Source: Hexactinellida sp. DTS-2022
Lineage: Eukaryota; Porifera; Hexactinellida
Length of the DNA: 64,000 nt
Assembly: GCA_028753945.1 (NCBI GenBank)
Contig: JAPNXP010000010.1
Span: 1,367,042-1,431,041, forward strand
Direction: 5' to 3'
Numbering within the stretch: position 1 is the stretch's first letter; the number at the start of each line of letters is the position of its first letter. The notes below the pieces were generated by a model. That model was not told the origin of the DNA. It saw only the letters and a program-made list of their open reading frames with translations, and searched no databases. Below are positions 11,878 to 58,998 of this stretch, one piece after another. The position numbers and the translations under genes were made by a program.

Positions 11878-14165
11878 CAGGGTTGGCAGGTTTTGTCCAT
11901 GTGGTAAAAACCATAGTGGTAAAAACCGTCCTGTCCAAAACCTCCTGACTGGTCAAAACTGGTAAAAACCTAATTGTTATACTCGTGCTGAGTCATGCAT
12001 ATTACTTGTATATTTAATAAGTTGTAACTTGTATATATGTATATAATAAATATGCTGAATAAATACTAGTTGAAATGATATAGATGAAAAATATGACAGT
12101 AAATTGATGTTTAATTAACCTTTATTCTTGTTCCCAATCTAATTCTTGACATCCTCTCAATTCTCTGTAACAAGCTACTAATTTGCTGGTTTTGTCGATT
12201 CACAATCTGTTCCTTAGTTGGGTTTGAATTAAACCAAAATTCGAGAAAATCCTTTCAATACTTGCTGAACTTGACGGTAAGATTAACAAATTGATAGCTA
12301 TATCGCAAAGCTCATGAGCTACTAAGTTTTTCGATGTTTTAATGGTCTTCCACCACGTTACCGGATCTAATGCATCTGTACATTCAAATATAGATGCGGG
12401 AAATGGTGCTGCCTTTGCCTGAAATTGATTAAGTTGCGGCAAAAGAGAAGCATTTAGTAGAATAAGCAAACCCCTCGCTTCTTCCTGTTGTTCACATGAA
12501 AGCCTCTGTCCCATGTACTTTGGATTGACCATGTTGGCTAGTAAGTGAGTAGGTGTAATTGCTTGTTTGAATCGTTGCTGAATTTTGCTTTGATGACATT
12601 TCAGCTCGTCTAACTGGAGTAATTTCATCCATTCTTCGCAGAGTCTGCAATATTAGACTTTTCTCCTTGTAACCTGTCCAAAGATATTGAAATCGGTTTA
12701 AGTTGGTCATAAAGATTTTTAGCCTCACGATAAAGGCCAACGTTGTTTATTAGGTTTACAATAGACAAGTCGATAACATCTCCATGTTGTGCCAGAATGT
12801 TTCAAAAGGAAAGGCCTATTTGTTAGGTATGTCTTGATACACTCCAATTGACTATTCCACAGTGTCACAACTGGTAATTGAGGCTTAAGAGATCCTTTTT
12901 GTGCCGATAGGAGGGATCCAGGATTGTGATGAATGCGAAAATATTTATTTATCTCTGTAATACGAGAAATAATTTGCGAAGGGGTGATATCCTTCCCCAA
13001 CAGGTTCAATAAATGAGAAGCACAGCCGTATACTGAAAGTGAGCTTTCAAGTAATTTCAAATTGGAGCGCATTGACTGCATTTTGGGTTCATTGTCAGTA
13101 ACGACAGCAACAACTTTACACCCAAATTTATCAGTTGCTTCTTTCGTCGCTTCGATAGCTAAAGAAGTACAATAGGTAGCAGTTTTCTTGTTTGATCCAG
13201 TGTCAACAGAATTCAGAAAATAAGATCTTTCTCCTGTATGCACATAATGGGCAATTACAGGGGAGTTGTGTATGTCACTCCACCCATCCTGTACTAGAGT
13301 AACATCCTTGCCTTCCAGAGCTGAAGCAGTCATGGTGGTTACTTCATTAAATATCTTGTCAAGAAGACCTCCAGCTAGACTTTTCCTTGTAGGCGGTGTA
13401 TAACCAGGTCTGAGCATAGAAATTGTCTCTTTGAATACGTCATTCTCAGCGAGGCTAAAAGGAAGATTACACGCATAGAATAAGCGAGCAATTTGATCGT
13501 CGAGAATTTCTTTCTGGTGAGAGTTGGTCTTTATTGTGAAGTCATTCAACTTCGGCTGGATGACATTATGACATAAACGTTTTTCAGGTGGCTTAGTTGA
13601 ATCACTACTGTTAATCGGTATTATAATTTCAGGAAGATCTCTAGGAAAATTATGTTGTTGTTCGCTTTGAGAACATTTTTCAAGATGAGTTCTAAGCCTT
13701 CCAGCCATGGCACTGATCATAGCACTACATTTTATACACTTAGCTCATATTTTTCCACCATCTTCAACTTTGATGTAAAATTTCCATACTGAATCAATGG
13801 CCCTTCCTCCTTGTGCCATTTCAAATTGGTCAATTTAAGTAAGTGAGTTATACAAATCTGCACGATAGTATTCAAATTATATAATATCACAAATGCTTTG
13901 GTAATTATCCCCCCTTATAAAGTACATATGTTATACGAATACTTTAGTACTAATTTATTAGTATTTAATTGGTTGAAGCCCGGTGAAACCACACATTTTA
14001 TGATTACTTTACTGTTCCATTGTAAACTAGTGTCAATAGTTATAACCAAATCGAAATAATATATCTTAGTTTTATACGTTTTCTTATTATTCAAGGATAT
14101 AGTATTGACCAGTATTTACCGGTAAAACCTGGTTTTTCCAACTGTCCGTCCAAAACCCAACCCTG
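11878..14165 (-). mobile_element. hAT DNA transposon, decayed
   Basis: About 2.29 kb. Ends CAGGGTTGGCAGGTTTTG and CAAAACCCAACCCTG; the flanks share TTTCTCG (11871-11877 and 14169-14175), a near-standard hAT target duplication if the right end carries three extra bases. GTCCAAAAC and GGTAAAAACC motifs recur near both ends. It encodes a BED-finger hAT transposase on the minus strand, now broken, and is non-functional by itself. Confidence 0.85.
12200..13819 (-). pseudogene. hAT transposase with BED zinc finger
   Basis: Start taken at the ATG at 13819, 33 codons upstream of the longest open block. The N-terminus is a BED finger: VWKF, then AKCIKC, then RLRTHLEKC. One in-frame TGA sits where the family usually has W just before AKCIKC. 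The RNase H-like core shows DGWSD, then VVTDNEP, then the CASHLLNLL block; the C-terminal hATC dimerisation region shows SSSASIERIFSNFG with the expected E. Two frame changes are visible, near 12797 and near 12645. Family function is cut-and-paste transposition in the nucleus; with these three lesions this copy should be inactive. Confidence 0.88.
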
Positions 14166-17039: not shown

Positions 17040-17383
17040 TATTGGTGATCAGGGGCCTTATTCACTAAACTTCTTAAACTTAAACTTAAGCGTAAACTTA
17101 AACTTAAACTCAAAGTTAATCTTAAACTTAAACTTAAACTTAACTTAAACTTAAACTTAACTTAAACTTGGAAACTAGTATAGAACTAAATATATAAACT
17201 ACGTCTATCAACATACAATAAACAACTATCAATTCTTTCTTTTATGGCACTCGCTTTTCTACTTGATCTCGATCTTTCACAAAGTTAGTCACGACAGAGA
17301 GTATCTCGTGATAAGCTCAACCCAATTGATGTTTATAATGATACAGAATACAGAATTTATCGCGCGTTAGATTTACTAAATAT

Positions 17384-18678
17384 ATGTTCGCTCAGCTGCA
17401 AGAAAAAGTTGTAACGTTCCTTCATCGATCAACTATTCGATCACATTCCATTCCAGCTCCCACACAATTAGCTGTCACATTACAATTTCTCGCCACCGGT
17501 TCATTTCAAACGGTTGTCGCAACTTCACATGGGATATCCCAGCCTTCTGTTTCCCGATGTATCCGTACAGTGACAGATGCACTATGTTTTTTTTCCCGAG
17601 ATTATATAGTTTTCCCAAATCAAACAGATCAATTACGAATACAGAAAAATTCTTGGAATTAAATGGCTTTCCACTTGTACTCGGATGTATTGACGGCACA
17701 CATGTACCTATTTTAGCACCTCCCTATAACGAAGATCTATTTGTCAACAGGAAAAACTTTCACTCCATCAATGTCCAAGCAATATGCGATACCGATTTAA
17801 AATTTATTGATATTGTCGCCAAATGGCCTGGGTGCACTCATGATGCCTTTATTTGGAGGCAGTCTGGTATCAATCGAAGGATTGCTAGTGGAGATATACC
17901 CACTGTCAAAGGATGGTTCCTCGGCGAAAGTGGGTATCCACCACGGCCTAACCTCCTTACACCAATAATTTCTCCAATCACGCCAGGGGAGAGGCGCTAT
18001 AATATAGCTTTTCTGAAATCTCGAAAAACTATTGAATGCGCTTTTGGGGTTTGGAAGAGTAGATGGCGATCTATGGACAAAACTGGAGGGACTCTCTGTT
18101 ACATCCCGGAGAGAGTTTGTCGATTAGTAGTAGCTACAATGGTGCTGCATAATGTTTGCATCGATCATAGGCAGTGTTTGCCAGAAAAGACCACCCCGGA
18201 AAAAACCGGTTTTTTCCACCCCGGAAAAGGGCAGTAAATTTGGAAAAACCCACTTATGACCATATATGGCAACAATATAGGCCCATTTATGGTCAGCTTC
18301 TATATGCAAGAGACAGATATTATAAAGAGATTCTACACTTCTAGTGCCAACGATTGTTAAATTTAGGACTTTTGAGAGTGGATCCCTAATGTTATACAAA
18401 GGTTAGTGGATTAACCACTAAATACACCGAAATACGTATATTAATTACGCGTAGGCCAGTCAATAGAAAAAGGCAGAAAAGTCCAGAAAAGGGCGGTTTT
18501 TTCCGGAAAAAACCGGTTTTTTCCACCTGCCCCGGTCTATTCTAGAAAAGGGCGGTTTTTTCCGAACACTGATCATAGGCTACAATGGCAGATAGATACA
18601 ATCGAGCAAGAAGATCCTATTGTAGAAGATACTATTGCAGAAGATAGTTATCCGGGTGGTATATACATCAACAACTAA
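17384..18678 (+). pseudogene. PIF/Harbinger DDE_Tnp_4 transposase
   Basis: N-terminal helix-turn-helix part reads SHGISQPSVSRCIRTVTDAL. The catalytic part shows GCIDGTH (first D), WPGCTHDAFIW, then GESGYPP and IECAFGVWKSRW (E). Most family members have GDSGYP, so the second catalytic aspartate is glutamate here. The frame changes once near 17590-17640, and coding similarity upstream of 17384 (a DVYNDTEYRIYRALDLL block) lies in yet another frame. The last exon is split by the MITE at 18172; across it the protein continues to a stop at 18678, ending DSYPGGIYINN. Nuclear cut-and-paste transposase; this copy is inactive by inspection. Confidence 0.88.
18172..18571. mobile_element. hAT-type MITE nested in Harbinger transposase
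   Basis: 400 bp with short ends CAGTGTT and AACACTG and a perfect 8-bp target duplication ATCATAGG (18164-18171 and 18572-18579). Both ends carry repeated GGAAAAAACCGGTTTTTTCC palindromes. Removing it restores the reading frame at CIDHR followed by LQWQ. Confidence 0.92.
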
Positions 18679-18716: not shown

Positions 18717-19504
18717 TCATAGTTTGAAAATGATGAGGGTGCGAGGGTGCGGAGGAACAAAGGAGTGAAAATACCCGTGAGGATTAGGGGGAGGTGGTAG
18801 TGTGGAAGGAGCAGTTTGAAAAGGTGGTAAAGTAGGCTGTATTTGGCTAAAATTGTTGGAGAACATCCTATTTTGATTAGATACTACAGCTTCTAAGAGA
18901 TCCACCACTCGATCCAACTTGATATCTATACTTTTCAACACAACCAGCTTCTCCTGTTCACTTTGCAAAATAACATTCTTTACCGAGTGAGTTAAAGCAA
19001 CATCATCGTCGAAGAATTTTCTTTTTCGACGTGGTTTGATGTCTCTATCTGTTGCACTGCCGATGGACATCTCAGATTCACTCAATGGACTGATTGGCGA
19101 TAAAAGGGAAAGATCAATGCCTGATGCCACACAGACGAAAAGTTCCTTCCCCTTAATACTTTTCATCTTAAGCTCCATTTCAGATAAATTTCCTTCAGGG
19201 GACCCACCTCCTGTTTTACGGATGGAGGACAAATGTCGCTTATAATCGGCTTGTGTTTTGCCAAGATGTTAGACCACTTCTTAGATACATCATCTTTGGT
19301 CCTAACTGTTCCATGAGCCTGTGTAAGCTTTTGGGCGATATCTTCCCAGATGTTAACTTTCTCTTCACTGGTGAGAGAAGAACTTAGAGCACCGAAGAGA
19401 TTAGGCTTATTCTCTTGAACTATGTCAATTAGTAATGCTATCTCCTCGGCGGAAAATTCTTGGCACGAATTTTCAAAGACATCGGAAGTGACAGAATGCA
19501 ACAA
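18717..19504 (-). pseudogene. Harbinger accessory Myb/SANT-like protein
   Basis: The N-terminal block (MLHSVTSDVFENSCQEFSAE) leads into a trihelix/Myb-like DNA-binding region with WEDIAQKL and KKWSNILAK. A one-base loss in an A run near 19255 shifts the frame, and the second block continues with SIRKTGGGSPEG, a basic KPRRKRKFFDDD stretch and a C-terminal coiled segment (LVVLKSIDIKLDRVVDLLEA) with a proline-rich tail. In this family the partner binds the transposon ends and helps nuclear import of the transposase. Divergent orientation to the transposase is typical. Confidence 0.82.
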
Positions 19505-36150: not shown

Positions 36151-39100
36151 TCAATCTTCAGAAATCTTCGAAGGTCTACCTTTCTTTTTGGTCGATTTGT
36201 TTGATTTTTTACTAATCTTTACCCAGTCATCATCAGCAGATTGAAGCTGTGTAGTCTTATATTTATATTTTTTTACTTTAGCTAAATCTTCGTAGATACG
36301 TTTGCACAGTGCATTTGTACGCTCAGAAGTCCCAAACATTTCAGAACCAAGCTGAGTTATTTCAAACAAGCCATTAAAATCCTGCAAAGCGGTAATCACT
36401 GTCGGAGGATCCATCCATTTGTTCAGAGACAAAATCTCCTTTTGTGCCCACTCGTAGCAAGCTGGACTGAGAAGAATCCCATCTGCAACAATTTCGCTCG
36501 GTAGAATCTTAGTAGAGGTGTTCTTGGGTTTTACATAAACTTCACTTTTAGACTTAATCAATGGTCTTTCTTTTGCTCTATCAGTCCCAATTATGGGTAC
36601 ACAAAGAACTGCATCAATTGGTTCTGTCACTTCCGAGTTAGAAACATCACAAACATCAGCTGTGAAGTTATCAGCATTTAGTTTATCCTTCTTGGTAACT
36701 CGTGACCATGTAGAGAAAACAACTGGCTGATCAGCTACCTGGGCTTCCTTGATGCGAATTCCCTCTGCTCTGGCTGCATCCTCTCTAGCAGTTTCTTTTT
36801 GTTCCTTCTCTATATCTAGGAAAGATGCAGTAACAGTGTCAGTTGGACTTGAAGCCCATGCAGGTCTTTTAGACAGTACTATAAATTCCTCATCTTCTCT
36901 GCATTGTTCTGTTCTCGATTGTTCTGTTAGGATTGCGTCAAACTTGACAACCGGGATACCATTGTGAGAGGGCGGGAGGAGGGGAAAAGTCTGTCTTCCT
37001 AAGCAGAATGAATCTAACTCATCCAATTTAGAACGATTAGAAGAATGTTTCGCTTTGCTAAAGGGTTGATTTTTCTGTGCTCTCTCTTCAGGTGTGGGAA
37101 TTGCTTGTGACACAGTCTGGCTAGAAGCAGAGAGTGGTACTTTTTTCGCTTTCGCTTTCTGCTTCTTCTCCAGACCTACTTTGGTCCAGCCAGATTTATC
37201 TTGTTGAGGGTCGATAATCGAAGATGTAGATTTAGACTTAACTTTATATTTATCCTGAGAAGGTCTAATCATTTCTTCTGAACTTGGAAAGCGGTATAGT
37301 GGTGTGTGCTCTTTCGAAGTTTTGAGTGTCGTATTGGACAGGGGAAGAGATGTTTGTACCTGAACAGTATCAACAACAGGAGAAACTTGAGTAGGTGCTT
37401 TGGTTAATTGTTCAGGTATTTTAGGAGGGCCACTTAACCACATGTTCGTCTTAGACGGTTGAGTTTTTTTCTGATCTGTATTACAGATAGAAGTAAATTT
37501 CGGTTCAGGAGAACTATGTTTATTAGTAATTTCCTGGCTTGATTCCAATGGTATGTGTTGAAATACCTCTTCAGGCGGTGAGGAGATAGTTACTATCTCT
37601 GAGTGCTCCTGTGGCGAACTGTCCGTTGAATAGACTTCAGTAGTATCAATAATAGATTGTTGGATTGTTTTCTCTCTCGAAAGTGTAAAAGGATCACATT
37701 TTTCAACTTCATCAAAGGTTTCAGTTTCTAGTGTTATTCCAGGAGTCTTTCTTGTTGACTTCTCATCCCTTGTTGCTAATCGATTGTCGAGTAATGTCTC
37801 CGGTAGAGCAATGGGGGCTTCTTTAATAATTTGAACTTCACCGAGAGATAATTCTTTGGAAATTAGCAGAAGGTCAGCTCCGCTAAAGAAAGGTTGTTCT
37901 GAATTGTCAGTGATGTTAAGCAGGTTAACTAGTTTAAAAGATTGAGTGTCACACTCTCTCCATATAGGAAGTGTAGTAGGAAAGAATCTACGTCCATACC
38001 AGCTGTCCATCAGATCAGAGTGGAATGGTCCTTGAATGTTCCCTTTCGGATCGACATAATACCAAAGGTGCCTCGGATCTTGCGGGCCAGGTTCTTTATT
38101 AGAACTGGACTCAACGTCAGAGTGTGAGCTACGAAGCATATGTGTTTGTTTAAATTTGTTATTTGAGTTTGTAAAAGTTATGAAATCGGATTTGTTTGCA
38201 TTGGGTATAAGGTCAGGTGTCTCCACATTACTTGGATTTAGGAAAGAGAATGAATGAGATTCTCGTTCCTTCTGTTGCGTAGAATTTTGATGATCTACTT
38301 TACTATTCTCTAACAAATCAGCACCTCTATTAAATTTGTGGTGGTTAGGATCTGGCCAACTCACCATCTTATCATCAAAGGTATTATTCTGATAATTTGA
38401 ATGGAAAGGGATTTCATGTTCCTGCTCGGGTTCAATTGAGTTTTGTGAAGAATTGTACTCTTTATCCCCACAAGTCTCGTCACCAGGAAAGTACTGCCAG
38501 TCCGGAACGGTCTCGAGGGGAGACTCTGAGAGTCCCTCTGACACAGACTCGCTGTGACTGCATTCGGATACGACTCTTCGACGAGGGTAACTTGAGGGAA
38601 GGTCCGTACTCTCGCTGGAAAATCTGGAGCGCCACACCTGGCCTCTGGAGAAACTAGGCCATTTCAGGTTCGACTCAAAACTATTCGTCAAACCTCCGCC
38701 GAAATCCAAGCCTCTGGCCCTACCTCGTCCTGACAAGCCTCGGGACTCAAATGTCTTTGGCTGAGATGTAGAAAGGAGGAAGTAGGAAGAAGGCATGTGA
38801 TCGCAATCATTGGGATCCGGAGTGTAGTAGGACTTGTCGAGCAGTTTCAGTGCTACACTTGTGTCCATTGAGAATATCTGAGGACGAGCCTGGAGGTCTT
38901 GGGGCGGTGGAGATGGAGGACCACCGATTGAGTTGATAATTTTGAAAATATTATCCCTCGTGTAGGACACTGGGGAATTCGTTGGTAAGCAGGGGATGGG
39001 AAATCGGTTGGAGTTGAACATTCTACAATTTGATGTGTTTCTAGTCCAAGAGGGCTCAAATCTTCGCTCATTATTTTTAGGCAAGTTTGCCAAGGTACGT

Positions 39101-39153
39101 GTAGCGCGGTATGGTACAGGGTTCCTAGGAGCATCATTGAAGAGTTGTTCCAT
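36151..39153 (-). CDS. GIGYF: GRB10-interacting GYF protein (GIGYF1/2-like)
   Basis: 1000 codons in one frame. GIGYF proteins are cytoplasmic translational repressors that recruit 4EHP/eIF4E2 and decay factors through a GYF domain binding proline-rich partners. Visible: a candidate eIF4E-family binding motif SYTRDNIF at residues 63-70 (Y-x4-I-F, I in place of the usual L); RG-rich GRGRARG at 142-148; VPDWQYFPGDE near 220; a GYF domain about 362-415 beginning LWYYVDPKGNIQGPF with LPIWRECD; a charged helical stretch about 775-805; and a conserved C-terminal region near 896-965 (EWAQKEILSLNKWMDPPT onward) as in animal GIGYF. Vertebrate proteins are about 1,000-1,300 aa. The start is the first ATG of the frame; a further 5' exon is possible. 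No introns or lesions seen. Confidence 0.9.
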   Translation of the reverse strand: MEQLFNDAPRNPVPYRATRTLANLPKNNERRFEPSWTRNTSNCRMFNSNRFPIPCLPTNSPVSYTRDNIFKIINSIGGPPSPPPQDLQARPQIFSMDTSVALKLLDKSYYTPDPNDCDHMPSSYFLLSTSQPKTFESRGLSGRGRARGLDFGGGLTNSFESNLKWPSFSRGQVWRSRFSSESTDLPSSYPRRRVVSECSHSESVSEGLSESPLETVPDWQYFPGDETCGDKEYNSSQNSIEPEQEHEIPFHSNYQNNTFDDKMVSWPDPNHHKFNRGADLLENSKVDHQNSTQQKERESHSFSFLNPSNVETPDLIPNANKSDFITFTNSNNKFKQTHMLRSSHSDVESSSNKEPGPQDPRHLWYYVDPKGNIQGPFHSDLMDSWYGRRFFPTTLPIWRECDTQSFKLVNLLNITDNSEQPFFSGADLLLISKELSLGEVQIIKEAPIALPETLLDNRLATRDEKSTRKTPGITLETETFDEVEKCDPFTLSREKTIQQSIIDTTEVYSTDSSPQEHSEIVTISSPPEEVFQHIPLESSQEITNKHSSPEPKFTSICNTDQKKTQPSKTNMWLSGPPKIPEQLTKAPTQVSPVVDTVQVQTSLPLSNTTLKTSKEHTPLYRFPSSEEMIRPSQDKYKVKSKSTSSIIDPQQDKSGWTKVGLEKKQKAKAKKVPLSASSQTVSQAIPTPEERAQKNQPFSKAKHSSNRSKLDELDSFCLGRQTFPLLPPSHNGIPVVKFDAILTEQSRTEQCREDEEFIVLSKRPAWASSPTDTVTASFLDIEKEQKETAREDAARAEGIRIKEAQVADQPVVFSTWSRVTKKDKLNADNFTADVCDVSNSEVTEPIDAVLCVPIIGTDRAKERPLIKSKSEVYVKPKNTSTKILPSEIVADGILLSPACYEWAQKEILSLNKWMDPPTVITALQDFNGLFEITQLGSEMFGTSERTNALCKRIYEDLAKVKKYKYKTTQLQSADDDWVKISKKSNKSTKKKGRPSKISED

Positions 39154-39312
39154 TTGGTTGCTAATAATAATTTAATAAAAGAAGATAAACTGTCATAGTA
39201 AATCGTACTACACATATGATATTTTTGTAACAAATACCTCATTCCATAGGGTATCCCGACACACGTATAAAAAACTCCCATGAAAAATATCCCCACCATG
39301 GAAATTCGTACA
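39154..39312. other. Upstream of GIGYF
   Basis: About 160 bp before the next element. It would hold the 5' UTR and promoter or the end of an intron; no motif is clear enough to call. Confidence 0.35.
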
Positions 39313-39592: not shown

Positions 39593-39979
39593 TACCGTAG
39601 TGATTCGAATTGTAGCTCCTACTCGAATAATCGCCCCTCACCTACTGAATTTTTAATCCCTTAGGGGGAGATTATTCTTGTAAATACACATAGTCGTGAC
39701 CTACGTTATATAAGGCCTGTTTCGACGTATTTTGAGTACCGTCGTATTTTGAGTACTTTTCAGTACCGAAACCATGGATAACCAATTTATCGACGTATTT
39801 TGAGACTGGCGTATTTTGAGTATTTTTTTCTATTCTATCTATTCTATTTTCTATTACAAATTATGCTGTGATATTTTGAGGCGCTCTGATAGACTGAGAC
39901 GCTACTACAGTGTATGCCGGTTATAAGCACATTGTCGGGAACTGCACTTGATGTGCTTATAACCGACATGTTCTTATAA

Positions 39980-40121
39980 CCAAGGGCGTAGCCAGGCCAA
40001 AATCTAGGGGGGGGGGCAAATGTACAACCAGCGAGCGTAGCGTGCGACTTAAAGGGGGTCTGGGAGTGAAAATGGCTGAGCTAGGGGGGGGGGGCAACTG
40101 CCCCCCCTCCCTACGCCCATG
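39980..40121. mobile_element. 142-bp hAT-type MITE
   Basis: Ends CAAGGGCGTAG and CTACGCCCATG, perfect duplication CTTATAAC (39972-39979, 40122-40129), long G and C runs inside. Inserted in the Tigger-type MITE. Confidence 0.88.
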
Positions 40122-40156
40122 CTTATAACCGACATAAATTATACAGGGTATATGGC

Positions 40157-40351
40157 CAGGGGCGCCCGCAGGCATACGCACTACACTCACGTGCGTATAG
40201 TAAATTTTATATGTTAATTAATTTTAACACACTTTTGTGCTAAGATTTTTTGAAATTAGTCACAAGACTCATGAGTTTGGAAATTGGATACAGAAACTGC
40301 CTGAAAAAACATATTGTGCGTACATTATTTTTTAACCTGCGGGCGCCCCTG
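40157..40351. mobile_element. 195-bp hAT-type MITE
   Basis: Ends CAGGGGCGCCCGCAGG and CCTGCGGGCGCCCCTG, perfect duplication TATATGGC (40149-40156, 40352-40359). Second insertion in the same Tigger-type MITE. Confidence 0.92.
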
Positions 40352-40989
40352 TATATGGCAACCGTTTTCCAACATAGTGTGCTTATATCCGATATGTTCT
40401 TATAACCGGTGTGCTTATATCCGACATCTACTGTATAAATGCAATTTCCTACTCATTTTACAATTTATCGTTATTATTTTAGATAATATTTCTTTCTGCT
40501 CCAGGTATCTTTCAAAGTATTGTAATATACTATTCCATACGGTCTGAACATGTTTACTGCTAATACGATCCGATCAGATTAAATAAATGTGGAATACTAA
40601 ACCCAAGTCAAAACTAAACATAACTATACATATATCATATATGCTTATACAATACTATAACAAGGTTTGCAATGCGAAATCAGCAGAAATGTATTACAAA
40701 AATACACTATATTAATGATACAATTTACAAAAGCATATACAAAATTAATGGCTAGAGGGAAGAATTATTAGTCAGCATGTAAATACACACACTCACAACT
40801 TAGACAGGACACATACAATACAACAGCTACACTATACCAGTACCGCTATAACCTAGCTGATAGTTATTACTCTCCTAACCCTAAGCTGGTGGTGAATTCC
40901 AGATAGCAGGTACTCATATATAGCGTAGCTATTGTAATTATAATACTAAACTATATAAACGGACACTCTCAGCTGAAATAATTTATTAA

Positions 40990-41753
40990 TTACAACTCAA
41001 CTGATATTATTTGTGTTTCGTCCCGGCTTGGACTCGTCAGTTGCGTTGCCTTTCCCGCAATACACTTTAGATGGTTGAGTGTTGGTGTAGTGTTCTGTCG
41101 CGTTTTCGCCACTGGGGACATGCCGTTGCAGGTCGCGTTTCCATTATCTGGGCTCGCCATGATAGGGATTGCGTTGCCTGAATAGCCTCGGGCAGAGGTC
41201 CCCACAGGCTTCGATGTACCTTGTCTTTGAGCGCTTTCGAAAATAGGAGGAGTTATTCAGAAGAGTGCAGTGTGTAGTATACTTTATTGACTGTTCCGAT
41301 GAATGAAGAATTGGGGTATAATTCGAGTGGTGATTCGCGTATGCTTTCAAATTTATAGAATTGGTTGTCGAGGCGAATTAGTGAGTAAAAGTGATTTGAG
41401 AGATGGATCGAGAGGCCGGCTAACTCGTACCGCAATAGTTTGTTTTTGTGATTGATGGTAAAGTGTGTATTGATGTCAGGTAGTAGTAGACTAGACTTAG
41501 GAAATGTCCAATTTCAATGGTGAGAAGTGGAGGGATAGAATCAAATTGGCTGGAGCTTATTTCAAACTTATCGGTCTGACTACAACCACATTTATTGCAT
41601 TTTGATGGGAGTAGTTTGGCACATATTGAATGCTCGATGTTAGTGATAACAGAACCGATTATTCCAAGCATACAGTTCCAGGTGAATGTGCTATGACATT
41701 GATGGCAGTAGAAGGTGGATGTGTATTTGTCGTTGCAGAGGTTAAGACTTTGT
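40990..41753 (-). pseudogene. Protease-like region of the Ginger-like element, C-terminal part
   Basis: Minus-strand similarity blocks: a zinc-ribbon-like pair of CxxC motifs (FYCHQCHSTF, then LLPSKCNKCGCSQ), then IPPLLTIEIGHF, then YELAGLSIHLSNHFYSLIR with the H expected of a ubiquitin-hydrolase-like catalytic box, then a low-similarity tail. It follows the Cys-box block at 41760. It is broken into several blocks; I treat it as a fossil part of the element, not a host gene. Confidence 0.6.
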
Positions 41754-41759
41754 AGGTAT

Positions 41760-42508
41760 TTAATAAAAGTCGTATTGTTCCATCAGGTCAGAGTATGTAG
41801 TCTGCATTCCAATCGCTTTAGCAATGAAGTCTCTGAGCTTATCGAAATTAAACTCATTGACAAGGGTCTTAAGTTCATGGAATTTCGCATCAGATGGTGT
41901 AGACCCGAGTATTCCGCAAGATTCAATTATCTTCTCCTTAAACAGACTTAATATGGCGATGATATTGTCGAGGGGGCAGGTGTTAGTTTGTGCAATGTTA
42001 TTATATTCCCCTTGCCATGTTGGTAAATGAAAGTCATCTCGCGTTAACACTCTATTTCCCGAGTTTGTCTTAGGAGGTGATTCTAGAGTGATTTGAATCA
42101 CTTCTTCGGGGAAAATCAACAACATCACCACTGGTAGAAGGACAGCGAAGGGGTAGTCTCGTTCCCATTTATCCCGTGGTATGTTGGCACCAAATTCAGC
42201 TTCGGCATATTCGTCATACCATAAGGCAACGCTATGTCCTATTTGCTGCTTGAACTCGGAGCTTATTTCGGGTCTTAAACTGTATTCAAAAAGAATATCC
42301 AATGACCTTAATGTTAATGTTAAAGCTTTTGTTGCGAGTTTTCTATGAAGTGGTGTAATGTACGTGCATGTTTGTAGAGCTGAAATGACCTCTGATTTGA
42401 GCGAATTGAGTTTTTCTGATAGTATTTCTGGTGTCATTATACTCTGTTCATCCATATCTCCGAATGTTTCTTCAGTTGCGCCCAAACAAAGCTCATCGAT
42501 TACTTCTC
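41760..42508 (-). pseudogene. Protease-like region of the Ginger-like element, Cys-box block
   Basis: Open block of about 249 codons after an AG splice-acceptor-like site at 42509. It contains DELCLGATEETFGDMD, a helical middle, and NIAQTNTCPLDNIIAILSLF, which resembles the catalytic Cys segment of USP-like and related cysteine peptidases. Known Ginger proteins sometimes carry a cysteine protease domain, classically OTU-like; this one looks more USP-like with the downstream His box. Assignment is from motif recognition only. Confidence 0.55.
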
Positions 42509-42997
42509 CTAAGTTATCAAATGACAAACAATTAGGTTAAGTTCTACCCAAATTTAAACGGTTTTCGAATTGCAAATGGTTTGCATTCGCATGAGACGCT
42601 CTCCTGGTGTCTATATATGTTTTAAGGAACTAAATTCTCCCGTTATAACGAAATGCTTGAGACCCCGTCTCGGTTTCAATTCGTATTTAGTCGAGTAAAT
42701 CGATTACTTGCATCAAATAATCACATATGTTGCTGGAAATTTTATATTCAAAATGAGCATACTCGATTACCCCAGTGGAGTGTTATCTTTTGTTCGATTA
42801 TTTACTATCATTATTTCAGATTGGTACCCGAGTTTTATAATGCGAAACAAAGTGTGACACACAGAGAGACAGGCAGACAGAAATGAGACATATATTAATA
42901 AATAATAATATACATCAATTATAGTAACTTATCCGGGAATATCTCAGGAATATTAGTTTGCATTATATTAAGTGCTGATCAAGATTATTCTACTCAC

Positions 42998-43054
42998 CAG
43001 ATTGTATGTTGACATATTTAGGTTTTCTCGCTGTTGATCTCCTATGTCCATAAG
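42998..43054 (-). other. Putative small exon of the Ginger-like gene
   Basis: 57 bp between an acceptor-like CCACCAG and a donor-like CTG/GTGAGT on the minus strand, coding a basic stretch RRSTARKPKYVNIQ in the frame expected between the flanking exons. Confidence 0.45.
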
Positions 43055-43167
43055 CTGGTGGTTTAACCTATCGAAGTTATATATATTCATACATAAGTAT
43101 ACAAGAGGACGTATTTGACCCTGCTAATAATAGTTTACTGAATAAGTAATCAACAACTTTAACTTAC

Positions 43168-43381
43168 TTTGATATCTTTCTGCCGATACTTTCGTGACAA
43201 GTGAATTGGAATCTTTGTCGTTTTGTCACTAGCAGGATTTTTCTGTGTAACTAGATGGCTAGGAGTTACTTCGGAAACCGTATATGGACCAATAAACTTT
43301 TGTTCGTTTTTCGTCCCAGGTAGTTTCTTTGATTTCTTGATGTTCTGAACAAGAATCAAATCACCTTCCTCAAACTCAGAT
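43168..43381 (-). pseudogene. Integrase C-terminal GPY/F domain
   Basis: Exon-like block between acceptor ATAG and donor GTAAGT. It encodes GDLILVQNIKKSKKL and FIGPYTVSEVTPSHLV, the GPY/F module found at the C-terminus of Gypsy-type and Ginger integrases, which binds DNA next to the catalytic core. Part of the 39718-45822 element. Confidence 0.7.
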
Positions 43382-43569
43382 CTATTTCACAATGTAATAT
43401 AATCAATTACGTAATAACAGAATAATTAATGTTATTATTTACAATAGTAGTAGAAAGTATATTTCAATAACATCCGGGTTTATTTCCAATTTAAGTAAGC
43501 AAATCACATAACAAATATCACTACCTATTACGCTTGACTTTGCGATCGAAAATATTAGGCGATCGAAAA

Positions 43570-44190
43570 TAATAGGTAACTTCCTATTCATCGATAATAC
43601 ATTTTATATGCCAAACTTCAATAATTTTTGAGATAGTGAGATAATTAACACTTAATTCATTATTAGGTAATGACTCACTATCTCAAAAATTATTGAAGTT
43701 AGGCATATAAAATGTATTATCGATGAATAGGAAGTTACCTATTCCGGACAGATAGTACCAGTCTAGTTTACATAACATTCATAGTTTTTGAGTTATGGCA
43801 CATTTTAGGAAATATACATTTTCCATGGCAACCGAGGAATGTGTCAATATTCCATTTATAATTTCGATATATTTTATTCTACTACTTCTGGGTAGACCCA
43901 TGTTCCAATTTTAAACATTTATAACGCGTTTAACTAAGTTAAAAGTATGCTAGAAAAACAAGATAATTCGCAACCAAAATAACCATAACGTCATCAGATG
44001 ATGACATATCACAATTCTGGAGGGTGCTATGTATACCTGGATACCATATTCCTATATAGTTATAATACACTTTTCAGCTCTATCATTGCTAATTATTCGA
44101 ATAAAGATCAATTCTCCATTTTGAAAATTAGAAACTGGCCTCTTTGTTTTATGGCCTTCTCGGCGACATATATAGCCGTATATTAAGTAG
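43570..44190 (+). repeat. Dispersed repeat R1, copy 3, with added palindrome
   Basis: The left end is a ~165-bp inverted repeat: AATAGGTAACTTCCTATTCA with the mirrored arm ending near 43742, around a short loop. The rest matches 16060-16571. It ends AGTAGGCCATG near 44196, a tip shared with the MITE at 44711. Nested in the Ginger-like element. Confidence 0.65.
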
Positions 44191-44579
44191 GCCATGCATG
44201 ATGTTATTCTGCGCTGACATTCTTTCACTAGTACGATTATCTTCAATCTGATCGATCCATTCTTCTTCAAAGTCAGGTAATTGAAAAGGACATAGTGTTT
44301 CCATTGGATAATCATTCGTCTAGAAACGTAAATAATAACTGCAATTAAACTTTCTATGGATCCAGTCTGGAATTGACGTTAAAATATTAATTTTAAAATG
44401 TGTAATAATAGAACATAAATTAGTACCTACCGTTTCTTCATCATCAAAAAAATGATTTTGTTGACCTTGAGTATCCTCATGAGATCCAGATATCAAGTTC
44501 AGAAGGGGGAATGGATCGCACTCTAAAAATACTAAAAATACTGGCAATAGTTTTAAATAATTGATCACAATTGCTTACA

Positions 44580-45100
44580 TAAATTTCAACGTCTTTGTAT
44601 AATCCCATCCATGTACTTAGATCGAATAGCATGAATAGTGGTTCGCATTCCAGCATGGGTTACATCATGGTAGTACTGAATAATCTCCAAAACTTCAGAT
44701 TGAGTTGGTACATGGCCTACTATATTATACGGCTTGATAAGTCAAGTATTTGCCATTTTATTTCCAGGCCAGTGTTTACTTTCTAATTGCTCGTAAAATA
44801 AATTACCTATTGTCATGGAATAAACTAAATATATGGGTATGCATATTTGATTACGTCATTGTGGTTAAATCCGATGAGAAATTATTCTCAAAAGTATTTT
44901 AGATGTTTCCAGCGTATTTGAAAACCTAAGTTTAGTTTATTACATGACAATAGGTAATTTATTTTACGAGCAATTAGAAAGTAAACACTGGCCTGGAAAT
45001 AAAATGGCAAATACTTGACTTATCTAGCCGTATTATATAGTAGGCCATGGTTGGTACTTGGAGGAATGTTTCTCTTCAGTTAGAATCGCGAACACACTGA
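44580..45100 (-). pseudogene. Integrase zinc-binding block (HHCC-like)
   Basis: Minus-strand block LEIIQYYHDVTHAGM followed by RTTIHAIRSKY, the H...H part of the integrase N-terminal zinc domain, split by the MITE at 44711. Acidic exon-like blocks between 44200 and 44560 (GSHEDTQGQQNHFFDDEE) follow it. The catalytic DDE core expected between here and 43381 was not recognised. Confidence 0.55.
44711..45049. mobile_element. 339-bp MITE with ~120-bp TIRs
   Basis: Ends CATGGCCTACTATATTATAC and GTATTATATAGTAGGCCATG; arms pair over about 120 bp with few mismatches. The flanks share GTTGGTA (7 bp). It sits inside the integrase zinc block. TIR tip resembles 20040-20827. Confidence 0.88.
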
Positions 45101-45419
45101 AAAAATAATGAATATGAGATAACTAATTTTTCAGATCATCAGAATTTCAAACCCAATTCTTGTGTTCAGATCAAAAATACTTATTTTTTAATTAATTAAC
45201 TCGTAATTCATTTATTTATTAATTAATAAGGGAACACAAACATGCATAAATGTTTGGAAGGGTTCGTTAAAATGTAACATTACGCCAACAAGTTAGGGGG
45301 TGACTAGTAAAGTGTGATAACTAAGGCTTGTGCAAAAAGCGTGACAAAAGAGAGGATTTTACGCATTACGCGGAACGGTTGCAACCATAAACAACTTTAC
45401 AACGTAAAGAACAGCTAAC

Positions 45420-45559
45420 CTTGAATAGTTTGTCTCCTTCTTCAACTCTATACACACGCACTTACGAATGAAATTATTCCTCCTTTGCTTCTTCAACTCT
45501 GAAGGGATAGTTTTCTTCTTCAGATATTCACGGATTTGTTCGAGTTCGACTGTATCCAT
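45420..45559 (-). pseudogene. N-terminal exon of the Ginger-like gene
   Basis: Starts MDTVELEQIREYLKKK and continues SELKKQRRNNFIRKCVC to a donor-like AAG/GTTAGC. Short helical N-termini of this kind precede the zinc domain in retroelement and Ginger integrases. ATG near the right TIR, correct orientation for the blocks downstream. Confidence 0.55.
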
Positions 45560-45822
45560 TATTTCAAATTGGGTTTGACAGGTAATTTCCTAAGCAAATA
45601 CAAAGTCAGTTAGTTAGTAAACACTTGAAAAAGTTGTTTAAATACCATTCGAATTAATAAATGATGTCATTGTTATGGAGTATTTACTTTGCAATAAACA
45701 CGGAAGTTAATTGTACATACTCAAAATACGACAGTATCAAAATACGTCGATAAATTGGTTATCCATGGTTTGGATAATGAAAAGTACTCAAAATACGACG
45801 GTACTCAAAATACGTCGAAACA

Positions 45823-45979
45823 GGCCTATGCACCAACTTTGTGAAACTGGACCATGGATTAATTAACATGTGTAGTGTATCGGAGGTCAAACATACCACA
45901 AACCACAAATTTCTGATACATACGTATATCAATTGTATAATGATGTTGGAATGAGTGATAATCGAGGAATTATCCAGGA
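45823..45979. repeat. R1 fragment flanking the Ginger-like element
   Basis: GGCCTATGCACCAACTTTGT and AACTGGACCATGGATTAA continue the R1 end at 39690-39713 (GTCGTGACCTACGTTATATA), showing that the Ginger-like element split an R1 copy. Confidence 0.55.
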
Positions 45980-45987
45980 GCGCGAGA

Positions 45988-48660
45988 GTCCAGGCTTGGA
46001 CCGGGTCAAGATTTCAAGACCCGGTGACCCGGTAAGCTCAGACCCGGTGACCCGGTTGACCCGGTAAGCTCAGACCCGGTAAGTTCTGATTCGATGACCC
46101 GGTTTATTGTGACCCGCTATAACCCCTTTTCTAGGAAATCCTTGTTTAATTGTTAAGGCCCCGCGTCCCCTTCGATAGGCTGCTTGACCCCTAACAAATA
46201 TTTTCTGTTTAATATTGATTAATCTTATTTAAACCTTATGCAATATTGGTTTTGATAAATGAATTTAATCATATATGATTTGAAATTGAATAATGAAAAG
46301 AATAACTGATAAATATTACTACTATAGAGGAAGATTTAAATAATTGATTCTAATGTAATGATTATGAAGTAGGTAATAGTATTTTCTTTTTTAATGCTTC
46401 ATTAAGAAGAACTAATCCTTCCACCGTTTCCGGGTTCAATCTTCCACGATCCTTCTTCGTAACGCGACCAGCTGAACTAAAGTGGCGTTCCGATTCTGCC
46501 GAACTTGCTTGAATCACTAAAAATGACTGTGATAGGTAACTGAGGATTGGGAGTTTGCAACTCTGTTCGCCCCACCACTTTATAGGATCAAAGATTTCTT
46601 CCACATATTTGATACAAGTGATATTTGCATACCTTGTTAATTCCGTTTTTAAATTCGTTTCGTTCCAATCTGTACAATTATTAATAGAAACCGCTGTACC
46701 ACCCCTCCTAAAGGATAAAAGGGGATCTACTTTTGAACATTTAGGAGGTGGTGGTAGAAGAGGTTCATCCATCTGACTTTCCGCAATTTGGAATTGTAGG
46801 GGAGGAATTTGTTTTTCTTTAAATACAAGCATAATACCTTCTCTTGCACTTTGAAGCAAATTGACGCGATCACGTTTGTTCTTCACAAATATAAATGATT
46901 TTAGTGTAGGATCTAGGTAAGTTGCAATAAAATGTATTGAATTCAAAGATGTCCACACCTTTTGGATAATTTCTTCAGTCATTATTCGTTTTAGAACACG
47001 TGTTATTGGATCATCATCTGTTTCTATTTCCCAAGCATTTTGAAGAGCATAATAGGAAGGTGCCACATTCTGAATGGAAGCGATAGATCCAAATTCAAGA
47101 ATATCGAATATACGATTAAGTTTTTCAAAAAACTTTGTAACAATTGTCAACAAAGCCAAGTCTATTCCTGCAATAATGTAACTCTTATTCTTCTCTGTCA
47201 AAATTTCTGATAACTTTGAGTGTGACTGCAACATTGAGTTAAACATAGAGTGAAGACTTCTCCATGGCCTAGTTTTCCCACCTTTTTTTAGTGCTATAGG
47301 TAGTTCGGATTGAATTCCAGTTGATTTTTTGCAAAGGTAACTGCCTTATTAACGCTATCGTAAAGCTGGTCGAGTTCATCAATTTCCAACATAGCTCGTT
47401 CCCATCCAGTTTTAATTGCGGTATTAATTCTGTGGCAGGCGCAATCTAACCTAATCTTTTGTGCAGTAGCAGCTACTATATTTGCTCCCTTGTCAGTTGT
47501 AACAGGAGTATTACTTTGGTCACAATTTATTTCCGTTAATATTTGATCTAGTTCGAACTCAATATTTTCAGATGTTTTTGTTTTTGGAAAAACTTTGCAA
47601 GCATACATAGCACGTTTGAGGGACCATAATTCTTTATCAATGCCACTGTCATGGCCCATTTCCTGTGAAATCCAGAAAAAAGAAACATCTAGGTAACTTC
47701 TTTGCATAATGTTATCAGTCCAAAGGTCTGTTGTGAAAGCAACTGCATCCCTCTGAATTGGATCTTGGAGTTTAGAGCTAATAGCTTGTTTTATAATAAT
47801 GATCTGTGCGACAGTAGACTTTGATATAGTCTTTCGTCCTGGAATTAATTCAGAAGCAGTCACATTTCCATATTTTGCACCAATTCTGATCATTTCTTGT
47901 GAAAAATGGATGAATCGTGGATTTTCAATTGTATTAAAAGACAAAAATGACCCAGCAACGAAATTTCTACTCACTTCTAAAATAGTTTGACTATCCTGCT
48001 TAGACAGAAGTTGAGTTTTTCTTTGAAGAACTGATGTAATTTTAACTTGTGAAGACGATGCTACATCTGGAGAACAATTTCGTATATGATCTTTTAGATT
48101 CTTTGTTCCATAATCAATAACTTTACCGCAATCTGTTTTAGTTTTATAAAGAATGCATTTGTAACAATAGTTGCAACACGCTACTCCAAAAACTATGTCT
48201 CCATTATCATTCACTACATCTGAGAAACATTTCCAACAATAACTTAAGTTTGGACGCGTGGAAGATTTTAATTTTAGGGAATAAATTTCGTCTTTGACCT
48301 TCTTGCTAATGTCAGTACAATTCATCATTTAAATATAGCAAATACATACTATAACTGTACTAGCTGTATATTTAAGGATACAGTGACCAGCGATACCAAA
48401 GAAGTTTCAATTGAAGTACTATGTCTCATAAATATTAAACGCCTTACTATATTAGATGAATCTTTCTAAGTTTTAGAATTATCCAAACAAATAAAATTTA
48501 ATTAGCATTACTATGATGTACCGGGTCAAATCAAAATTAAGTGACCCGGTTGACCCGGTGACCCAGTCTAAGCCTGACCCGGTGGTGACCCGGAATTTTA
48601 GCGAATATTGTGACCCGGTTGACCCGGAGACCCGGTGACCCGGTGACCCGGTCCAAGCCT
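45988..48660 (-). mobile_element. hAT transposon, nearly intact coding
   Basis: 2.67 kb. Inner ends CAGGCTTGGACCGGGTCA and GTGACCCGGTCCAAGCCT; the flanks share GCGCGAGA (45980-45987, 48661-48668). Both termini are packed with GACCCGGT repeats (about six left, about ten right), probable transposase-binding sites. One transposase gene on minus fills the interior. Confidence 0.9.
46362..48328 (-). pseudogene. hAT transposase, one frameshift
   Basis: Two open blocks (48328-47294 and 47246-46362) cover an entire hAT transposase. N-terminal BED finger: YCWKCF, ACCNYCYKC, NLKDHIRNC. Catalytic core: FTTDLWTD (first D), VTTDKGANIVAA (second D), CACHRINTA. C-terminal hATC: QASSAESERHFSSAGR with the expected E, ending DRGRLNPETVEGLVLLNE. 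The blocks differ by a single base in an A run near 47329 (TFAK, then KSTGIQSELPIALKKGGKTR in the other frame). That is the only lesion I see; a homopolymer sequencing error is a fair alternative. Confidence 0.9.
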
Positions 48661-56919: not shown

Positions 56920-58836
56920 TCAAATAATTTGTCGCTCAAAGAACACTAGCTGATCGACTAGAAAACAACCATTTCGTTTGTTGGTTATCTTTGAGAGTTG
57001 TATTTGTACGAGACCTTCGTCCTCCATCCTTCCATTTCCATTCACGTCTAAGCCAAACCTTGCTACTTTCAAGAACTCATAAACAATATTAAATAGCTCA
57101 GCCCCTAGTGTACTTAGACATTCGTTTCTCAGCATTCTTACTCTATCTTGTAATGTGACCGCCTGTTGGGAAACGGACAACAAATGCTCTTTGTCATAAC
57201 TCATTTCACAATTATCTTGTAATGCATTTTCAAGATAATATAGCATACATTCATATTCATCTTCAGAATTGATATGTTCACCTGTACCACTGCTAATACA
57301 GTCCATTTCGTTCTCGCTATACTCTTCAAAGTCCTCATCCTGTAGATAGTGACTCTCAGCTAAGACAGGGTCATCTGGGATGTAAGGTGTGGCTGAGTTG
57401 AAGGAACCTGCACGTGTTTGAGTGTTGTTATGCTCAAGTGTTAAAGTGTAAGTATTATTTGTATGGCAAGTGGTTTGGTTGACCAAGAAAGAAGGGAAAT
57501 AAGTAACATCAGAGGTCATATCCGAAGAAGACATCCAAGAAGGATTCGTTGTAGATTTACATTTCTCTATCTCGAAAAGTCTAAGATTCTCTTTGAACTG
57601 AGCTTCAGCTAGTTTGCGTTTCTCAATTGCATCTGCATCCGCGCGCTCTCTCTTCCGACTCATCATTTTCTCTTTGGGTGTAAGAGTAAGAAGAATTGGA
57701 TCGGTATCAACTGATGTGAAAGTTAATATGCCATGAGTAGCTTGATCTATCTTACTCTCTTCAGAACTAAGATTTGCAGGTGAAGACATCTGGGTGAAGA
57801 GATAAGGTTTCTTTGTACTGCCTGTTGTGGATTGAGATATGTTTCGCTGTAAGAGAGATTTTCCCCGCATTGACTCAATGTGTATTCTGAAAAATGACAT
57901 TTGCAGAATGTCATGAGCCGTGGGACGGAGCTTAGGATCTTTCTCCAACATCTTCTTCGAAAGATTGCGAACCTCAATTGAAAAATTTTCTGACAGTTGT
58001 GGTGGCTCCTCTTCAACAATTCTGTACAAGAGAGCCATGATAGACCTACCATTGTAAGGCCTCTCCAGCATCAGCAATTCATAGAAAATACAGCCAAGTG
58101 ACCAGATGTCGGACTTAAAGTTATATCCTTCTTGCTTCAGTACCTCTGGACTCATGTAGTATGGTGTTCCTGCGAAAGTGTTAGCGTATTCGTTATAACT
58201 CTTCATCATGCGACTAATACCAAAGTCTCCGAGCTTTACTTTGTTGCGCCTTAAAAAAACATTTCGTGTTTTAAGGTCACGATGAATGATCTTTCGATGA
58301 TGTATGTATTTCAGAGCAATGGTTAACTGTACAAACCAGTCCAAAACAATTACAGTATCTATCTTTTGTTGCGATTGCTGCTTCTGTTTGATGAACATAG
58401 CCAGGTCTCCTCCTTCGCAGTATTCAGTAACAATACAGAACATTGAATCTTCAACGAAGCTGTCGTAGAAAGATATTATATAAGGACAATTTAGTTTAGA
58501 TAAGACACGAGCTTCTTTCACTGCGTCAATAGTTTCATCCAACATTATATCATCGATAGAGATGAATTTAATTACTTTAACTCTATCTGAGGAGTCAGCT
58601 ATAGTTTCTTTAGTATCCTCGATACGATAGACACTGCCAAATTGTCCGGTACCTAATTTGTTAAGAAGATTGTAATTGACTCCCCAAGTCTGTTTCATGT
58701 GAGCAGGAGTATCAAAAAACAAGCCTTGAGACTGCGATTGGACCCAATCATTGATTGCCTCTTCGTCTGCAACCGTATTGCGACATATATCAAGTATACC
58801 TTTTGATTGAAGCAGATCGTAGTTGGATAGTGTCAT
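56920..58836 (-). CDS. NEK11: NIMA-related Ser/Thr kinase, NEK11-like
   Basis: 638 aa from the ATG at 58836. The frame is open 32 codons further upstream, but a splice-acceptor-like TTTGTAG lies 4 bp before this ATG. Kinase domain about 55-316: glycine loop LGTGQFGSVY (61-70), VKVIKF with K90, IIHRDLKTRNVFL (D187), GDFGISR (204-206), GTPYYMSPE (SPE 229-231). A basic coiled region about 383-420 (TPKEKMMSRKRERADAD), an acidic PDDPVLAESHYLQDEDFEEY block, and a C-terminal LGAELFNIVYEFLKVARF plus CFLVDQLVFFE segment all match the layout of vertebrate NEK11 (about 645 aa). NEK11 acts in the G2/M DNA-damage response. No introns or lesions seen. Confidence 0.92.
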   Translation of the reverse strand: MTLSNYDLLQSKGILDICRNTVADEEAINDWVQSQSQGLFFDTPAHMKQTWGVNYNLLNKLGTGQFGSVYRIEDTKETIADSSDRVKVIKFISIDDIMLDETIDAVKEARVLSKLNCPYIISFYDSFVEDSMFCIVTEYCEGGDLAMFIKQKQQSQQKIDTVIVLDWFVQLTIALKYIHHRKIIHRDLKTRNVFLRRNKVKLGDFGISRMMKSYNEYANTFAGTPYYMSPEVLKQEGYNFKSDIWSLGCIFYELLMLERPYNGRSIMALLYRIVEEEPPQLSENFSIEVRNLSKKMLEKDPKLRPTAHDILQMSFFRIHIESMRGKSLLQRNISQSTTGSTKKPYLFTQMSSPANLSSEESKIDQATHGILTFTSVDTDPILLTLTPKEKMMSRKRERADADAIEKRKLAEAQFKENLRLFEIEKCKSTTNPSWMSSSDMTSDVTYFPSFLVNQTTCHTNNTYTLTLEHNNTQTRAGSFNSATPYIPDDPVLAESHYLQDEDFEEYSENEMDCISSGTGEHINSEDEYECMLYYLENALQDNCEMSYDKEHLLSVSQQAVTLQDRVRMLRNECLSTLGAELFNIVYEFLKVARFGLDVNGNGRMEDEGLVQIQLSKITNKRNGCFLVDQLVFFERQII

Positions 58837-58998
58837 TAGGCTACAAACAAGCGAATTCAAACAAATACAGTGAACAAGTTTCAATTCAATGAAAAAAACG
58901 GATTTTACCATAAAATAAGTAGCCGGATACATCGGTTGTATAGTGAAGCTTAGAGCTACTAGCTAGTATGGATTCCTATAGGAGCAATTAGTCTATAC

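Follow-up and report, generated by a model that had tools for sequence, protein, structure and literature searches.

The locus considered here raises the question of whether a cut-and-paste transposon has joined a Gypsy-like integrase to a protease of the ubiquitin-specific protease (USP) fold, in the position where related transposons carry other cysteine isopeptidases. The window, i.e. the whole stretch of 64,000 nucleotides that was analysed, is part of contig JAPNXP010000010.1 of Hexactinellida sp. DTS-2022 (genome locus G000:C2:1367042-1431041). A preliminary description had placed an integrase GPY/F domain and a USP-like cysteine protease in one transposon gene at 40990-43381. The window copy is a complete but dead DNA transposon of 6.1 kb, and it is probably a Ginger1-type cut-and-paste element whose transposase combined a Gypsy-like integrase (H2C2, DDE, GPY/F) with a C-terminal cysteine isopeptidase of the USP fold. 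All genome-wide searches were performed in one assembly of 112.4 Mb in 18 contigs.

The element in the window

The borders of the element are given by 4-bp target site duplications (TSDs) and terminal inverted repeats (TIRs). Comparison of 45717-45827 with the reverse complement of 39713-39823 gave an alignment of 111 bp with 95.5% identity, the TSD being included in this span. The features are listed below in gene orientation; L010 is a close copy in which the C-terminal region forms a single open frame of 432 aa, and L072 is an intron-bearing relative.

39718-45822, minus strand: whole transposon copy, 6105 bp, bounded by TSD and inverted repeats, ends TGT...ACA
45823-45826: TSD GGCC, high side, 4 bp
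45717-45822, minus strand: 5′ TIR (gene orientation), about 105 bp, outermost 45 bp perfect
45437-45562, minus strand: piece of the N-terminal exon (MDTVELEQIREYLKKKTIPSEL...), located before the zinc finger; tblastn 43% to the L072 N-terminus, E 2.8e-7
44711-45049: nested palindromic insert, similar to a miniature inverted-repeat transposable element, arms of 119 nt, 97%
44613-44711, minus strand: partial H2C2 integrase zinc finger; tblastn E 1e-8, PF17921 at 1.3e-4, below the Pfam cut-off
43571-43743: nested palindromic insert, arms of 70 nt, 99%
43168-43386, minus strand: GPY/F exon, donor GT at 43167; 43386 is the open-frame start, not an established exon start
42998-43067, minus strand: short basic linker exon VKPPAYGHRRSTARKPKYVNIQSG, from the open-frame test, acceptor before 43067
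41763-42508, minus strand: exon that codes for the helical linker region and, together with the Cys box, for the beginning of the USP-like domain, 96% to L010
41501-41770, minus strand: second frame piece, with both CxxC pairs that belong to the predicted zinc finger, 96.7% to L010 residues 261-350
41256-41504, minus strand: third frame piece, His box and C-terminus, 96.4% to L010 residues 350-432
39718-39823, minus strand: 3′ TIR, pairing with the repeat at 45717-45822
39714-39717: TSD GGCC, low side, 4 bp

The GPY/F block that had been described proved to be real, as 43386-43168 reads '...KFIGPYTVSEVTPSHLVTQKNPASDKTTKIPIHLSRKYRQKDIK' on the minus strand and has at least 150 matches in the genome, the best non-self match being 99% identical. 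The extent of 40990-43381 covers the 3′ part of the gene and a certain amount of non-coding sequence, but the true unit is 39718-45822, and 40990-41255 lies outside the protein since the L010 frame stops at the equivalent of 41256. Among the proposed splice sites, 43168 and 42998 as donors and 42508 as an acceptor are canonical (GT/AG), but the acceptor at 43054 is wrong: it leads to 17 stops, and an acceptor before 43067 leads to none and to an open frame of 1035 nt. The Cys box NTCPLDNIIAI (Cys codon 41978-41976), the CxxC motif, which is present as two pairs, and the His box LSNHFYSLIR (His codon 41393-41391) were all recovered, but spread over three successive broken frames (42536-41763, 41770-41501 and 41504-41256).

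Compared with L072 and L010, the window copy retains the N-terminal exon and the H2C2 finger in part, whereas the GPY/F exon and the entire 432-residue C-terminal region are present. No match to rve, the DDE core, was obtained anywhere in the window by tblastn at E 0.01. The copy is dead, with the DDE core lost and the frame of the C-terminal region broken. In 9 of 11 close-copy loci tested, rve is present upstream of GPY/F, nearly whole in L040, L042, L043, L044, L046 and L048, in two pieces in L041 and partially in L047 and L051; L045 and L049 had no rve in the stretch examined upstream of GPY/F. Intact frames over the USP-like region are present in copies elsewhere in the genome.

Integrase and USP-like domain in related elements

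The linkage of GPY/F and the USP-like domain that had been proposed for the window gene was found in related elements. Three uninterrupted open reading frames (ORFs), L069 (885 aa), L070 (922 aa) and L071 (792 aa), each encode the integrase, GPY/F and the USP-like domain in this order, and the fusion is therefore independent of guessed introns. Above the Pfam cut-offs, rve was matched in all three and H2C2 in L069 and L070, the L071 frame beginning at the end of the finger. GPY/F of L069 and L070 was read as a motif by eye, and the DD35E spacing was read directly in L069. The intron-bearing L072 matched H2C2 at 3.1e-7 and rve at 2.4e-8. In addition, 22 rve matches were chosen by eye for apparent nearness and were not used as a count.

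With the 258-aa block of the window as query at least 136 genome matches were obtained (best non-self E 2.6e-165), and with a distant member as query at least 127. The list of 136 and part of the list of 127 were merged into 141 clusters, some of which are pieces of one copy. A tree of 15 domains contained two supported groups, one that includes the single-ORF members and one that includes the window family and its intron-bearing kin. Of 11 pairs tested, the eight between families had proportions of nonsynonymous differences (pN) of 0.21-0.39 and of synonymous differences (pS) of 0.67-0.79, synonymous change being near saturation, and the three close pairs had ratios of nonsynonymous to synonymous rates (dN/dS) of 0.47, 0.47 and 0.62. 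These substitution patterns indicate that the USP-like domain is under selection as a protein; catalysis is not thereby proven. Given the genome-wide matches and the protein-level selection, the USP-like block is more than a product of chance. Two more copies of the domain lie in 972-aa open frames at G000:C1:754721-755515 and C17:124950-125744, with 32% identity to L070.

GPY/F matches were paired with USP-like and OTU (PF02338) matches on the same strand and at most 4 kb downstream. There were at least 150 GPY/F and at least 150 OTU matches and the best candidates were scored, so that the pairing counts are lower bounds. Among the 150 GPY/F matches listed, 36 had a USP-like domain downstream, 49 an OTU domain, none both and 65 neither; a control with shifted positions gave a mean of 0.79 pairs with either domain and a maximum of 5. 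The 39 listed matches of at least 57% identity comprised 27 with a USP-like domain and none with OTU, and the remaining 111 comprised 9 and 49, respectively. Of the 17 C48 matches in the genome, none follows any of the 150 listed GPY/F matches within 4 kb. One OTU neighbour that was read (L097) consists of a GPY/F ORF without a Pfam match and an OTU domain above the cut-off. The USP-like domain and OTU alternate in the C-terminal slot of sister elements of the same genome.

The window copy alone, with its broken frames and introns, could also be read as a chance neighbourhood, in which a fragment of a host USP-like gene lies beside an integrase relic. This reading, whose probability is close to nil, is refuted by the single ORFs, by the pairing counts set against the shifted mean and by the terminal repeats and TSD, which enclose both domains.

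Identity of the protease-like domain

The domain is not placed by Pfam UCH (PF00443), and the designation 'USP-like' is therefore based on the fold prediction, on a profile match of moderate strength and on the conservation of motifs. For the profile match, the domain was aligned by hhalign to a USP alignment of one host USP, Ubp8 and USP2, which resulted in E 3e-5 and a score of 44.9, compared with a maximum of 26.9 in 200 column shuffles and with 20.6 for the reversed control. The aligned span (residues 276-410) takes in the CxxC fingers and the IPPLL strand as well as the His box and W/Y-x-Y-D, and H387 and D402 are paired with the catalytic His and Asp of USPs. The equivalence of these two residues was thus taken from hhalign, and that of the Cys from fold order and motif.

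Structures were predicted with AlphaFold2 for L010 (432 aa), with an average pLDDT of 77.9 and values for blocks of ten residues that lie mostly at 75-96 between residues 171 and 432, and for the L070 domain (317 aa), with an average of 84.1 and block values of 74-97 between residues 41 and 310. In Foldseek comparisons with PDB, counted at E <= 0.001, the best 50 of 247 matches for the L010 model and the best 50 of 233 for the L070 model were all of the USP fold (best E 2.2e-9 and 4.5e-9, respectively; probability 1.00). In a viral structure library, the top seven rows were viral ubiquitin hydrolases. Profile and predicted fold thus point to the USP fold, as had been proposed for the window protein, and to no non-protease family.

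Conservation was assessed in an alignment (A2) of 15 domain rows, from which L012, L013, L085, L089 and L090 had been excluded as truncated, broken or near-duplicate. Cys185 is conserved in 15/15 rows, His387 in 14/14 and Asp402 in 13/14 (Glu in L035); the four finger Cys and Trp172 are each present in 15/15. Of the 14 remaining rows, 13 are 24-46% identical to L010. Two of the excluded rows differ at conserved positions (Tyr for Asn189 in L085, Leu for Phe388 in L013), and the frame of the unaligned copy L086 stops short of the His box.

The domain might instead belong to another papain-like family (C48/Ulp1, OTU, Josephin or VTD) and merely resemble USPs, and weak Josephin matches at the His box (E 0.014-0.045) can be cited in its favour. 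This assignment is highly improbable in view of the USP fold of the best 50 PDB rows for each model, of the order Cys, finger, His with four finger Cys in between, and of the profile comparison that had been suggested with C48 and OTU: none of the 17 C48 matches and of the 150 listed OTU matches overlaps the 136 USP-like places. The Josephin matches, like those to MCM_OB and zinc ribbons, are below the cut-off and scattered, and neither single-sequence Pfam scans nor searches against PDB sequences yielded a significant family. The 61 genome matches of PF00443 likewise have no overlap with the 136 USP-like places.

As a separate observation, the USP-like transposon match at C7:241321-241554 lies amid PF00443 matches on the same strand (G000:C7:238559-243996). 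The latter are probably exons of a host gene, and the match possibly represents an insertion or an exchange of exons.

Several results weigh against an active USP-fold protease in a Ginger1-type element. The hhalign probability is only 73%, and the span is confined to the latter half of the domain and does not reach the Cys box. Of 20 members searched singly, one matched Pfam UCH (E 0.15), and hmmsearch of the domain profile against PDB sequences found no USP. The query-normalised TM-scores are moderate (0.28-0.38 for L010, which has an extra N-terminal part, and 0.34-0.50 for L070), and the Foldseek root-mean-square deviations are high (6.7-23 Å among the rows listed). The oxyanion-hole Asn of USPs, which stands five residues before the Cys and is invariant in the alignment of three USPs, is not there (Ala180 in L010). 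The third residue of the triad is Glu in the window copy, and in the unaligned copy L011 Ser replaces one finger Cys. As to the transposon, the TSD sequences and, in two of three families, the 5′ end differ from those of Ginger1: the TSDs are GC-rich here too, but GGCC, GCAC, CCCT and CCCC as opposed to CCGG/CCGT, and the 5′ end of the two families is TGTTT as opposed to TGTNR.

The oxyanion Asn, which is not conserved at its usual place, would be accounted for by a pseudoprotease, i.e. a USP fold that is no enzyme and serves as a module for binding ubiquitin or a ubiquitin-like protein (Ubl) or as a structural part of the transposome, comparable to the pseudo-ubiquitin hydrolase PAN2. PAN2 itself is among the best 50 of the 233 fold matches of the L070 model, at rank 43. 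The invariant Asn189 and the near-invariant Asn183 may be alternative oxyanion candidates. The triad is kept as given above across families that are mostly more than 50% different; a pseudoprotease is unlikely, and an active USP-fold isopeptidase is preferred.

Ubiquitin or SUMO as possible substrate

According to PMC8983731, ubiquitin-specific USPs have Tyr directly behind the catalytic His and every USPL1 orthologue has Phe there; a change of this Phe to Tyr in USPL1 weakens SUMO2 binding, and USPL1 is without the blocking loops. In the sponge domain Phe directly follows His in 14/14 rows of A2 that reach the position. Among the excluded rows, Leu is present at this position in L013 and, immediately ahead of the frame break, in L090, and L012, L085 and L089 end earlier. 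Compared with the host USP used for hhalign, the stretch before His lacks about 4 residues. Both features are hints from the alignment that point away from a standard ubiquitin USP, and the substrate of the domain is possibly, though doubtfully, other than ubiquitin.

Phe after the catalytic His and a short loop before it are the likeness to USPL1 (PDB 7P99, 7ZJU). The fold scores differ in that they have no clear preference for USPL1 over ubiquitin USPs. USPL1 structures were ranked 4, 10, 15 and 16 for the L010 model and 21 and 36 for the L070 model, 7P99 being at ranks 4 and 21, respectively. A genome search with PF15499 (USPL1, C98) at E 10 was negative. Kinship with USPL1 by fold was rejected, because the second model (L070) places ubiquitin USPs above USPL1.

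It is conceivable, though less likely than not, that in a transposon lineage a USP-fold enzyme acting on SUMO or another Ubl has replaced the ubiquitin protease of the transposase. A USPL1-like specificity would then have evolved or been captured independently, and tag removal where the element inserts would be a general requirement of Ginger1 transposition, which OTU, Ulp1 and USP, three unrelated protease folds, could each satisfy.

Comparison with known transposons

Ginger proteins with OTU are indeed known, as had been noted beforehand. Table 1 of PMC2836005 lists 16 Ginger1 families, in which the C-terminal domain is OTU, is Ulp1 (in one case together with PHD) or is absent; the wording there is 'either OTU or Ulp1 but not both'. 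Since one of these families has neither domain, OTU/Ulp1 is, on this account, common in Ginger1 and not defining. The elements described here share with Ginger1 the order H2C2, DDE, GPY/F and the C-terminal slot for a cysteine isopeptidase, as well as further traits given in that paper: TIRs of 40-270 bp, a 4-bp TSD, 0-4 introns (mostly GT-AG) and a length of 2.6-7 kb. The TIRs of the window copy (about 105 bp), the C4 copy (42 bp) and the C10 copy (about 160-205 bp) lie in this range. The integrase domain set is present in L069, L070 and L072, and the window copy is without the DDE core. For the YPYY motif, which in Ginger1 precedes the zinc finger, L069 has SYPVPSTKDQKRMIRKKAANY, similar by eye. 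The difference from the families of that table lies in the USP-fold domain in the slot, none of the 36 USP-paired GPY/F matches listed having OTU within 4 kb. Compared with these families, the predicted USP fold in the slot is new; the transposon plan and the slot itself were already known.

Likeness to USPs (C19) consists in the predicted fold, the order of Cys, CxxC/CxxC finger, His and Asp, and the W/Y-x-Y-D after the His box. Differences are the distance from Pfam UCH, Phe instead of Tyr after His and the lack of Asn five residues before Cys. A USP with a transposase has a precedent: the Trichomonas protein XP_001314237.1 is described in PMC2836005 as transposase_11 plus peptidase C19. Compared by this description, it likewise has a C19-type domain on a DNA transposase, but of another transposase family and lineage. 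The VTD deubiquitinases of Helitrons are likewise transposon-borne, beside or instead of OTU, but have an Asp-x-His active-site arrangement and belong to rolling-circle transposons (PMC9741609). In searches of the open-access literature, as judged by title and the start of the abstract, no Ginger element with a USP-like domain was found. Viral contigs were scanned with the domain alignment, and none of 31 pattern matches was confirmed; a relative from outside this genome was thus not encountered in these contigs.

Termini and mobility

The C4 copy has a length of 6102 bp with perfect repeats of 42 bp and the TSD GCAC. The C10 copy (3572 bp, TSD CCCT) has repeats of about 160-205 bp with internal repeats, of which the outer 23 bp are perfect, and its C11 sister has CCCC on both flanks. 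A GC-rich TSD of 4 bp was thus found in 4/4 elements of which both ends were seen (GGCC, GCAC, CCCT and CCCC). At the 5′ end, the C4 family has TGTTG, and the families of the window copy and of C10/C11 have TGTTT.

Identity among the C1, C4 and C17 copies amounts to 99.2-100% in the stretches compared (0.5-3.7 kb), and that between C10 and C11 to 99.8% in alignments of 614 and 1155 bp. From these near-identical copies we infer that some have moved recently. In the 3′ part of the C1/C4/C17 elements (L022/L023, from about 3230 to the end) there is a tandem array with a unit of about 21 bp, the self-matches of which blur the alignment of these copies there. In the short single-ORF element the terminal repeats (L069, 108-312 and 3516-3679) are themselves composed of inner direct and inverted repeats (TTTTGACAAAAATGGTCC), and the ends can therefore be misplaced by similarity alone.

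Neighbouring features of the window

Remains of a hAT element (46362-48328, minus strand; hAT dimerisation domain PF05699, 3e-16) lie near the Ginger copy on its upstream side and contain in their upstream part an ORF (47294-48328, minus strand) without a Pfam match. A nuclease with DDE_Tnp_4 (4.1e-30) at 17380-18237 on the plus strand, which we take to be Harbinger/PIF-like, is accompanied by an ORF on the opposite strand (18717-19268, minus) without a Pfam match. The ORF at 12725-13744 (minus strand) matches DUF659 (2.5e-18), a domain of hAT-like transposons. Probable host genes in the window are a long GYF-domain exon at 36151-39171 (minus strand), which is GIGYF-like, and a protein kinase at 56920-58962 (minus strand), which looks NEK-like.

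Possible function and significance

The predicted USP-fold domain would be catalytically active and remove ubiquitin or a ubiquitin-like tag. Its likeliest target would be the transposase itself or host proteins located at the site of the cut or at the target DNA, and removal of the tag could shield the complex from degradation or steer repair. For OTU and Ulp1 of Ginger1, an action on downstream DNA-repair factors has been suggested (PMC2836005), and for the deubiquitinases of Helitrons the sparing of transposition proteins from degradation (PMC9741609). By analogy, both roles would fit the USP-like domain.

The polyproteins of retroelements are processed by proteases, and the domain could, as had been considered beforehand, cleave the transposon's own protein, between the integrase and the C-terminal part, and not ubiquitin conjugates. 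Such self-processing is very unlikely: the protease stands at the very end of a single transposase, so that nothing is left downstream to release, the four finger Cys are conserved throughout A2, and the alternative occupant of the slot, OTU, is a ubiquitin-cutting fold.

With an isopeptidase of the USP fold as the preferred reading, the domain adds to this fold a divergent branch that is missed by the Pfam sequence profile. The presence of unrelated isopeptidase folds in one slot argues that the removal of ubiquitin or a Ubl matters for cut-and-paste transposition. As OTU-bearing and USP-like sister elements occur in one genome, and some of the USP-like ones have near-identical recent copies, this question is testable in one host.

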